A stretch of 47,539 bases of DNA, from NCBI GenBank assembly GCA_947453295.1, contig CANGGD010000005.1, positions 1-47,539 on the forward strand, written 5' to 3'. The first letter of the stretch is position 1, and every line of letters begins with the position of its first letter. The stretch comes from Chitinophagaceae bacterium (GTDB lineage: Bacteria > Bacteroidota > Bacteroidia > Chitinophagales > Chitinophagaceae). The notes beneath the pieces are model-generated. The model made no database searches, was not told the origin of the DNA, and saw nothing but the letters and a program-made list of their open reading frames with translations. This document shows, in pieces, positions 37,982-39,939 of the stretch. The translations under genes and the position numbers were made by a program.

Positions 37982-38055
37982 GGGGAATTAGCTCAGCTGG
38001 CTAGAGCGCTTGCATGGCATGCAAGAGGTCACCGGTTCGACTCCGGTATTCTCCA
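37982..38055 (+). tRNA. tRNA-Ala, anticodon GGC
   Basis: Complete cloverleaf of 74 nt. Acceptor stem GGGGAAT/ATTCTCC includes the G3-U70 pair that identifies alanine tRNAs; D-arm GCTC/GAGC; anticodon stem CTTGC/GCAAG with loop ATGGCAT (anticodon GGC at 38016-38018); T-arm ACCGG/CCGGT with TTCGACT loop; discriminator A. CCA is not encoded. All stems pair. Confidence 0.97.
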
Positions 38056-38061
38056 CAAAAT

Positions 38062-38106
38062 AAAAGACACAATGTATTGATAATCATACACTTGTGTCTT
38101 TTTTGT
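38062..38106 (+). terminator. Terminator after tRNA-Ala
   Basis: AAAAGACACAA (38062-38072) pairs with TTGTGTCTTTT (38092-38102); an inner TGTA/TACA extends the helix. It ends in a T-run interrupted by one G. Confidence 0.85.
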
Positions 38107-38141
38107 TTTTATTTGTTACAACATTTGTCACAACATTTTTG

Positions 38142-38249
38142 TTACTCTTCGATATTTAATTCTCCTTTTTTTTCTAAAATCTTTAAAATTTTATTAGTTG
38201 TTTTAATTGGAAGTATCAAAGGGTTAGAATAGTTGTTACCACTTTTACT
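38142..38249 (-). pseudogene. Unassigned 3' coding remnant in the tRNA islet
   Basis: A minus-strand frame with natural amino-acid texture (SGNNYSNPLILPIKTTNKIL then KILEKKGELNIEE) ends in TAA at 38142-38144 and has an in-frame stop about 36 codons upstream. It looks like the end of a lost gene, possibly the same one as the fragment to its right in a shifted frame. I do not recognise the family. Confidence 0.35.
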
Positions 38250-38466
38250 TATTTAGTAAAACTGTAGTAAATAGAACCCTTTGATTTATCATATAGTATC
38301 TATTAATCGATTGAGTAATGCCATCATTTGCACCTGCCTCAAAAAACTTTAAGTTTTGTTTTCCAAAAAAATACTTTTGATACAATTTGCTCATATCATA
38401 GTATAATAAATAAGAAAGATTTGGACTCTTTTATTATAAGCACCATTACCAAACAATTCCTTAAAT
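38245..38466 (-). pseudogene. Decayed FkbM-type methyltransferase fragment
   Basis: On the minus strand a 49-codon frame (38394 to 38245) reads MSKLYQKYFFGKQNLKFFEA then GANDGITQS. FFEAGANDGITQS corresponds to SAM-binding motif I of FkbM-family methyltransferases, where it is normally followed by NT and a tyrosine/leucine-rich helix; here INRYYMINQ follows and the frame stops. The neighbouring upstream sequence KELFGNGAYNKRV continues in another frame (to ~38466). The ~200-residue remainder of the enzyme is missing. I infer a truncated, frameshifted relic of a sugar/glycan O-methyltransferase gene. Confidence 0.5.
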
Positions 38467-38518
38467 GAATATTAGTTAAGCTGTTATTTAAAAAATAATG
38501 TGGAAGAAATGCTTAGGA

Positions 38519-39070
38519 TTATAATCCTTCAGTAATGACGCCACTAATCATTGCCGAAATATTTGTTCCAATTAAGGATATATTTGATAAGTTTAATGAA
38601 ACAATTCCATTATTTACAGTTACAATAATTGTTTGACCTGGGGATGCCTGGTAATTTGTAGCACCTGAGGTGGGAGTTGTGTTAGAAATTTGCAAGTAGC
38701 ATTCTGATGCGCCAATTGTAGTAGGAACACCAATGTTTGGATTATGATATATAGTGGTGTAGTTTGCTGTCGAAGTTGGTTTTGATGCAAAATGGACGTT
38801 CACATAACTCATTTTTTGACAATTGTTGTTCCAACCGTTTAATGAAAAATAATTGTAGATACTATTCCAATCAGAGTGACTAGCATTTTGACATCCAGTT
38901 GGATGACTACTATAATTATCGTTGTCGGAGCTGATAGTTGAATTAGATATTGTCCAATTTGAATTGGAGTTTTGAGCGTTTGAACTAGTACTGCTTTTTT
39001 TGCATCCTAAAGTTAATATAACTAATAAATAGAAAGTAAACGATGTTAATTTAAAAACAAGACCCTTCAT
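38519..39070 (-). CDS. Small secreted lipoprotein, function unknown
   Basis: 183 aa. Lipoprotein signal peptide with lipobox LTLGC (Cys23), then a Ser/Asn-rich linker KKSSTSSNAQNSNSN. The mature part has two Cys in the first half (HPTGCQNASHSDW, NNNCQKMSYVNVHF) and a third at ASECYLQIS, and a beta-rich C-terminus ending SAMISGVITEGL. I recognise no family. A TATATTTG box (complement of 39111-39118) 41 nt upstream fits a -7 element. It is divergent from the next lipoprotein gene and lies within the tRNA-bounded islet. Confidence 0.75.
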   Translation of the reverse strand: MKGLVFKLTSFTFYLLVILTLGCKKSSTSSNAQNSNSNWTISNSTISSDNDNYSSHPTGCQNASHSDWNSIYNYFSLNGWNNNCQKMSYVNVHFASKPTSTANYTTIYHNPNIGVPTTIGASECYLQISNTTPTSGATNYQASPGQTIIVTVNNGIVSLNLSNISLIGTNISAMISGVITEGL

Positions 39071-39253
39071 ATTTTTTAAATTTTGTATTTTTATATAATA
39101 GGTAATAAATCAAATATATGATAAAAGCTATTAGCTAGGTAATTTCTAAATTTTTTTCTGAAAATTAGAAGTAACTAATGTCGTATAAGAGGTTGCGACC
39201 AAAGATTTTTAAAAAACTATGTATATCCAACCATAAAGCATATTATATCAAAC
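39071..39253. promoter_or_regulatory. Divergent promoter region of the two lipoprotein genes
   Basis: 183 nt of A/T-rich DNA between divergent start codons. The minus-strand -7 candidate TATATTTG lies at 39111-39118. No clear plus-strand promoter was found. Confidence 0.35.
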
Positions 39254-39652
39254 ATGAAAAAAGTCATCAAATCAATTTTTGCAATCTCAACACTTGTACT
39301 TCTCATTTCAAGTTGCAAAAAAAGCGGCACTAATAAATCAAATTCTACTACTGTAGAATACCAATTTATTGCATCAAACCCTAGTGTTTCATTATTTGTA
39401 GTTTACACAAATAAAGATGAGATTTCAACTACTGTTCCTGCTGCTACATCGGGTTGGAAAACAACATTCACGCCAACAAATTTACCTTTTTCTGCTAATT
39501 TACTTGTTAGAAATCTTAATGTTGGAGGGCCTCAAATAGTTCAAACCGTTACAGCAAAAATTCTTGTTAATGGTGTAGTTGTACAAGAGTCTACAAAAGT
39601 TTTAGACTTGGCAAATAATATAGATAATCAAATCCAATTCACTGTAAATTAA
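39254..39652 (+). CDS. Small secreted lipoprotein, beta-rich, function unknown
   Basis: 132 aa. Signal peptide MKKVIKSIFAISTLVLLIS with lipobox ISSC, followed by KKSGTNKSNSTTVEY. The mature part has an alternating beta pattern: VEYQFIASNPSVSLFVVYTN, SGWKTTFTP, ANLLVRNLN and TAKILVNGVVVQES. The order (strand, Tyr-Thr, Trp, then an ILVNG hairpin) resembles MmpS-like small beta domains, but this is only a pattern resemblance. The CKKSxxxN start of the mature protein is similar to that of the divergent neighbour. Confidence 0.75.
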   Translation: MKKVIKSIFAISTLVLLISSCKKSGTNKSNSTTVEYQFIASNPSVSLFVVYTNKDEISTTVPAATSGWKTTFTPTNLPFSANLLVRNLNVGGPQIVQTVTAKILVNGVVVQESTKVLDLANNIDNQIQFTVN

Positions 39653-39866
39653 CTCAACTTGAGATAATGAATATTTGCAGCTATATTTTACATTCTCAAA
39701 TACAAAATATTTACAACCCAGTGTTTGTCTCAGTAATATTAAAATAGAAGTAAAACTAAGTTTTAATGTTAATCAGAAATATTCTAAACTTGTACAATTA
39801 AACAACTTTTTGGGTCACGTTTGGATATCAAGAAAATAATGTTTTTGTAGAAGTTTTGTTAATACT

Positions 39867-39939
39867 GGGGTTCTAGGGTAGAGTCAGCTTATATTGCATG
39901 CAAGAGGTTAACGGTTCGACTTTGGTATTCTCCACAAAA
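39867..39939 (+). pseudogene. Degenerate tRNA-Ala copy / possible attachment-site duplicate
   Basis: Bases 39896-39939 match 38017-38060 (tRNA-Ala from the anticodon loop through the 3' end and four flanking bases) at 40 of 44 positions without gaps. The 5' half is only loosely similar (GGGG...TAGAG). The T-stem mismatches (AACGG/TTGGT) and broken acceptor and anticodon stems mean it cannot be a working tRNA. The duplicated part, the 3' half of a tRNA gene, is what integrases of the tyrosine type usually leave at the far end of an insert. Confidence 0.75.

Follow-up and report, generated by a model that had tools for sequence, protein, structure and literature searches.

A probable decayed relic of integrative elements at a tRNA-Ala(GGC) gene in a Chitinophagaceae genome

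The window that we analyzed is an entire contig (C5; 47,539 nucleotides) from the genome of a Chitinophagaceae bacterium (G000; 2.08 Mb in 173 contigs, 95.5% complete). It was compared with the genomes of its genus, a set of 93 that includes G000 and consists mostly of multicontig drafts. In the window, the citrate synthase gene gltA lies upstream of a tRNA-Ala(GGC) gene (Table 1), and many relatives have the same neighbor at this place. A terminator-like hairpin can be seen by eye 3' of gltA (37671-37703). Used as a probe, the tRNA-Ala sequence found matches in 81 of the 93 genomes (G000 counted), several of which carry an additional copy of its 3' half. Inspection of the sequence shows that the anticodon-arm DNA of the gene forms an inverted repeat of 8+1+8 bases, CTTGCATG-G-CATGCAAG.

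Table 1. Features of the gltA/tRNA-Ala locus in the window (positions of the window) and hairpin-chimera loci of related genomes (positions of each locus).
Feature	Position	Strand	Basis
gltA (citrate synthase)	36325..37650	+	Pfam Citrate_synt 3.1e-95
tRNA-Ala(GGC), putative integration target	37982..38056	+	ARAGORN; Rfam 64.3 bits at 37982-38055
Candidate attL core (presumed regenerated tRNA copy), tRNA positions 27-75	38008-38056	+	ARAGORN, Rfam, core alignment
Inverted repeat then T run, terminator-like, just 3' of tRNA	38062..38102	+	Self inverted match
12-bp direct repeats TTTGTTACAACA, TTTGTCACAACA and a partial third	38112..38145	+	Aligned ends
61-aa open piece, remnant of a gene without family match	38248..38430	-	Pfam, NCBIfam searches
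Putative lipoprotein, 183 aa, cargo	38519..39070	-	ORF list; lipobox by eye
Putative lipoprotein, 132 aa, cargo	39254..39652	+	ORF list; lipobox by eye
Element right end	39706..39886	+	Similarity to relatives' element ends
Right arm-type repeat pair TTGGGTCACGTTTGGATATC	39810..39829	+	57 bp before core
Candidate decayed attR or junction core	39887..39935	+	42/49 to tRNA positions 27-75
Left-end type of G011, G082, G049, G088 and G099 loci; terminator-like hairpin	39936..39983	+	Score comparison
Gene for 2475-aa protein, where some relatives have a LOG-family gene	39980..47407	-	ORF list, LOG search
Hairpin-chimera loci	L059 1898-2013, 15645-16046; L061 6758-7200; L067 1649-1965; L188 1268-1706; L064 42-462		

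An earlier note, made from the DNA letters alone, had described this tRNA gene and a partial copy of its 3' half 1.9 kb farther on. Our searches confirmed both, and the copy is best drawn over 49 bases, 42 of which agree with the tRNA (BLAST E value of 5e-10 for the 2.08-Mb genome). We rejected a chance match as the source of this remnant since the score is far above that of the runner-up ungapped place in the window (26/49) and of the best among 200 dinucleotide shuffles scored on both strands (28/49). At all seven changed positions a G or C in the tRNA is an A or T in the copy, and three of the seven lie in the anticodon arm. The result is a full tRNA gene with a displaced 3' fragment downstream in the same orientation. 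The fragment begins at tRNA position 27, within a known crossover region (the anticodon class), and runs through to the 3' end of the tRNA. Between tRNA and core lie 1,830 bp, or 1,954 bp with both included.

The remnant is not called a tRNA by ARAGORN, and the Rfam search gave no tRNA in 39800-40000 even at E values up to 10. Faint tRNA similarity had also been claimed for the bases before the core, where the missing left half would lie. That similarity is at chance level: 35% of 2000 shuffles attained its local score of 6, as did 23% of the 1279 other 36-mers taken from the window. What had looked like a possible TGC anticodon loop is the decayed GGC core. With no call from either program and a left half at chance level, a second tRNA over the whole length was rejected as well.

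Both of the small lipoprotein genes proposed earlier are present as open reading frames with lipoprotein-like starts (lipobox by eye), and neither matched a Pfam family at its cut-off. We could not verify the label of broken methyltransferase given to the gene debris: the two pieces at that place, searched apart, had no match in Pfam, and NCBIfam, searched with the 61-aa piece alone, gave none either. The 12-bp repeats behind the terminator-like sequence may serve another integrase as left arm sites, a function that we infer; they differ in sequence from the left-end type of the relatives. Within the genus, the left end of the islet found only short A+T-rich matches. One match in G000 itself falls on C73, where the surrounding stretch has no tRNA-Ala match, and a search of virus contigs for the 12-bp repeat pair found none. 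This same islet was not seen in any relative.

The lipoprotein gene nearer the remnant has a relative with 86% DNA identity in G017 (L036 8353-10379), about 1.5 kb behind tRNA-Lys(TTT). In G096 (L073 5100-5375), 66 bases of tRNA-Lys(TTT) lie 140 bp behind an element right end. The tRNA-Lys gene may be a second hotspot with common cargo; no second tRNA-Lys end that would mark an att site was found in G017 in the 11.3 kb up to the contig end.

We searched the 93 genomes (E value of 1e-10) with the integrase that lies behind tRNA-Ala in G011. Pfam places this protein among the tyrosine recombinases (PF00589, 1.7e-16), and its match to an arm-binding domain falls just short of the cut-off. Members of its family occur in seven genomes and, in all seven, directly behind tRNA-Ala at 102 to 190 bp. 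They are full length in G011, G012, G043, and G107, interrupted by stops in G082, and partial in G049 and G003. At this threshold, the family is absent from the 95.5% complete G000, whose PF00589 matches fall on C36, C7, C85, and C71 and none on C5. Because the interval in the window lacks an integrase, we refer to it as a relic and not as an island.

Complete islands were found at the same tRNA. In G012, the tRNA is followed by the full-length integrase, cargo, and an exact 49-base copy of tRNA positions 27-75 (15.9 kb end to end). G107 has the tRNA, a full-length integrase, and a 91% copy of positions 12-75 within 13.5 kb on one contig. The tRNA and integrase of G011 share one contig, and the exact 49-base copy is on another, where a LOG-family gene comes next. 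G082 is intermediate, with a broken integrase and RadC in 3.2 kb, and G005 (3.4 kb) and G099 (5.3 kb) resemble the window in having the tRNA and a fragment without a G011-type integrase. The cargo of G012 includes RadC, DUF3871, and AAA_24 proteins, relatives of which occur in G011 and G107. The comparison of the gltA-tRNA-Ala locus across relatives that the earlier note had suggested thus uncovered variable DNA, integrase elements at the same tRNA, and a common element-end sequence.

Restriction or candidate defense genes were observed in three tRNA-Ala islands (L059 4384-8111; L035 109-828; L033 14012-14734). These are type IIG and Mrr genes in G107, the N-terminal part of a type IIG gene at a contig end in G011, and DUF5131 in G012.

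The sequence that precedes the remnant resembles the right ends of these elements. Identity of the window to the element right end is 89% for G011 (39797-39936), 85% for G082 (39799-39941), and 72% for G012 (39706-39935). The window, G011, and G082 do not differ at any of the last 28 bases ahead of the core (28/28). Over 60 bases before the core, agreement with the window is 55/60 for G011, 54/60 for G082, and 30/60 for G012. The supposed left half of a tRNA is thus element arm sequence.

In the aligned ends, we recognized paired direct repeats with a spacing of 11 bp, each consisting of TGGG followed by TCAC, TATC, CCAG, or TCAG. Pairs start 92 to 117 bp behind the tRNA and 64 to 80 bp before the right core. 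G012 and G043 have CCAG at both ends. In the other elements, the left and right pairs read TCAC, TCAC and TCAG, TCAC (G107), TCAC, TCAC and TCAC, TATC (G082), and TATC, TATC and TCAC, TATC (G011), and the two ends appear to match clearly only as CCAG versus the rest. The full elements of G012, G082, and G107 have the motif near both cores and nowhere else between, G099 has the left pair only, and G005 has none. These alignments are also where the motif was defined; finding it at the ends therefore adds no independent evidence, whereas not finding it elsewhere does. In the window, the right pair survives, and the left pair and the integrase start are absent behind the tRNA. These paired repeats near both cores are candidate integrase-binding sites, open to test. 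In G012 and G043, the left arm repeats (L033 17916-17935 and L062 2143-2162) fall no more than 30 bases into the integrase reading frame as called. With that start codon, their placement suggests self-repression by bound integrase.

Empty sites in relatives indicate what would lie behind an unoccupied tRNA. In the single-contig genome of G039, 36 bp separate the tRNA from the start of a match to the LOG gene; the gap is 130 bp in G062 and 170 bp in G094. Measured to the aligned LOG ATG, the spacing from the tRNA is 39 bp in G039, and that from attR is 118 bp in G011 and 116 bp in G005; LOG therefore follows attR as it follows the empty tRNA, at a distance that is not identical. When tRNA and LOG were on the same strand and contig within 20 kb, they were 36 bp to 18.6 kb apart (11 of 93 genomes: G039, G062, G094, G100, G055, G097, G005, G095, G047, G012, and G004). 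In a twelfth genome, G063, 275 kb separate the two, and the count leaves out genomes with opposite strands, different contigs, or one partner missing. Presence-absence variation and an empty site were thus found for the tRNA-Ala site in relatives and not for the islet of the window. The outer boundary of the islet is not closed because G000 has its LOG gene on a different contig (C69). The 2475-aa protein encoded beyond the islet has its best relative (55%) in G012, on another contig; its gene may be cargo of an older element or a later arrival.

The sequence immediately after the remnant bears on how many elements were involved. We compared these 60 bases with 28 sequences, one G082 sequence being entered twice. 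Scores were 40 to 47 against the left ends of the G011, G082, G049, G088, and G099 loci, compared with at most 30 (the G107 left end) for the other 23 sequences and at most 29 for single-base shuffles. The next post-core sequences were the attR of G107 (25), G101 (23), and the attR of G012 (22), which equal or exceed 99% of their own shuffles because terminators have T runs in common. Sequences before a nearby LOG gene scored 14 to 18 (G039, G094, and the attR of G011 and G005). By eye, the similarity extends to about 39983, where the 2475-aa gene has its stop codon. Since left-end sequence follows it, the remnant is probably an attP-like junction between tandem elements. The order of right end, core, and left end is that of an attP or a tandem, which points to two stacked elements. 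The left-end type of the islet also differs from its right-end type, which argues against one element with its own two ends.

A different kind of tRNA-Ala copy was observed in relatives, in which the anticodon arm is replaced by a TCCCGA...TCGGGA hairpin with variable loops (TCCCGC...GCGGGA in G013). There are 20 such sites in 13 of 93 genomes, compared with 0 for a reversed-pattern control, and 16 of the 20 are within 500 bp of tRNA-Ala or its 3' core. In five of 20 loci checked (the locus of the query among them), a small GIY-YIG gene (PF01541, 2e-14 in L067) lies between the tRNA or core and the copy that follows; in L067, L059, and L188, the reading frame of this gene continues into the copy. 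Tandem arrays of the tRNA-Ala 5' part plus hairpin were seen in L055 (2198-2358), L056 (41-293), and L057 (1933-2040), with periods of 68, 76, and 81 bp, downstream of gltA and extending to or near the contig end. Upstream of LOG in G060, four 111-bp repeats each hold the hairpin and the tRNA-Ala 3' half (L065 60-426). The sequence TCCCGAAAGCATTCGGGA occurs 26 times in G009 (L181-L187), mostly within a dispersed repeat in the loci read; copies lie 46 bp from an integrase-family match (C100) and 131 bp from a sub-cut-off match (C95). As a tentative and rather doubtful idea, two unrelated kinds of tRNA-using mobile DNA might meet at gltA/tRNA-Ala, namely tyrosine-integrase islands (some with defense genes; in the window, stacked and decayed) and GIY-YIG and/or hairpin-copy units that accumulate on either side, with the anticodon-arm palindrome as common target. 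At the level of titles and abstract openings, the literature yielded no description of the gltA/tRNA-Ala locus, of the hairpin chimeras, or of a GIY-YIG/hairpin-copy unit, and some may exist.

We conclude that the islet is very probably a decayed relic of integrative elements that inserted site-specifically into tRNA-Ala(GGC). Directly behind this reading stand the att duplication, the right end in common with relatives, their integrase elements, their empty sites, and the left-end-like sequence past the remnant. The suggestion in the earlier note that tRNA and copy are att sites of an element that lost its integrase is supported by the integrase elements of the relatives and by the element end in the window. 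A tyrosine integrase would have recombined an element attP, carrying a copy of tRNA positions about 27-76, with tRNA-Ala, presumably by a crossover in or near the anticodon loop. The 3' half brought by the element would have rebuilt the tRNA as attL (37982-38056), and the host's own 3' half would have been pushed to the far end as attR (39887-39935). It is likely, with less confidence than for the relic as such, that at least two elements were stacked and that a later event replaced the left end and integrase of the near element. Such an event would have left a different left end, the two lipoprotein cargo genes, and gene debris, and the remnant would have drifted toward A+T once the integrase was gone. 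We infer the order of these events and the manner of integrase loss.

A rival form of the integrase relic is a single element with its own two ends, deleted inside, with an unrelated gene, not a tandem array, past attR. The window does hold one tRNA and one remnant, and G005 and G099 look like simple pairs. Yet the left end of the window is not of the type paired with its right end, and left-end sequence follows the remnant. We consider this version possible though clearly the less likely one; it departs from the stacked arrangement only in finer detail. A decayed tandem duplicate of tRNA-Ala, with 1.9 kb between copies, had been offered in the earlier note as the alternative to integration, and it now appears very improbable. 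ARAGORN does call the attR of G011, G012, and G082 as tRNA-Ala of 69 to 70 nt, and the tRNA 5'-end bases GGGAAT recur before the core in G012 and G043. However, the 3' half of attR is an exact or near-exact tRNA copy, so the program can fold it with the arm, and these calls are not counted as genes. The Rfam tRNA model detected no attR site at an E value of 0.1 in the five loci searched, compared with 56 to 66 bits for the three true tRNAs in them; tmRNA matches at G043, G082, and G012 stayed below the family cut-off. Moreover, the left half in the window is no closer to the tRNA than are shuffles, and 28 of its bases are identical to the arm of the integrase-bearing elements of G011 and G082.

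Two further explanations concern the origin of the remnant. Some contigs of relatives start or stop at the tRNA core (G082 C72 and G048 C49), as short repeats would cause, and the draft genome might be misassembled here. An assembly error is nevertheless hardly to be expected: at 86% identity the remnant is too diverged to have been misjoined with the tRNA, and both of its sides match other genomes. The remnant might also stem from another tRNA-copying process, that of the chimeric copies with the TCCCGA...TCGGGA hairpin, some of them beside a GIY-YIG gene, which marks the same tRNA in relatives at the 20 sites described above. We give this origin almost no credence, since both of the hairpin patterns searched are absent from G000 and the remnant retains anticodon-arm sequence together with the element arm.

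The decayed integrative relic that we favor is an event of a long-known kind. Islander (PMC4383910) maps tDNA-targeted genomic islands and also counts tandem islands at one tRNA. The window resembles such islands in having a complete tRNA, a displaced 3' fragment in the same orientation, and identity that begins in the anticodon arm. Unlike them, it has no integrase, its remnant is only 86% identical, and its interval is shorter than 2 kb. With the integrase missing and an interval below the 2 to 200 kb given there as the length criterion, the window would fail the integrase and length filters of Islander. The nearest counterparts are the islands of G011, G012, G043, and G107, which have the same target and core and, in G011, a right end 89% identical over 140 bp. 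All four retain the integrase, and G011, G012, and G107 also retain the RadC, DUF3871, and AAA genes, whereas the window retains only a right end and the lipoprotein genes.

Among viruses, the G011-type integrase was not found in virus contigs beyond one unconfirmed candidate stretch, and its best phage record among the matches listed is 32% identical. The core occurs in 13 virus-contig stretches, 12 of which hold a complete tRNA-Ala (ARAGORN). One provirus (IMGVR_UViG_3300033446_000233; L195) has the 3'-half core of tRNA-Ala but no full tRNA, and an integrase gene lies 80 bp from this core. The integrase differs in its N-terminal domains (Arm-DNA-bind_5, SAM-like), and the genes nearby include those for a phage portal and a terminase. 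Given the core and the adjoining integrase, this virus probably uses the same kind of tRNA-Ala site.

What appears to be new in the window is a remnant followed by left-end sequence of the same elements, that is, a putative composite relic. The decay series that this genus preserves at a single tRNA is unusually complete, with an empty site, an integrase island, a broken integrase, an integrase-less islet, and a diverged attR. Such a series lets islet-sized relics be recognized that fall below the usual detection filters.
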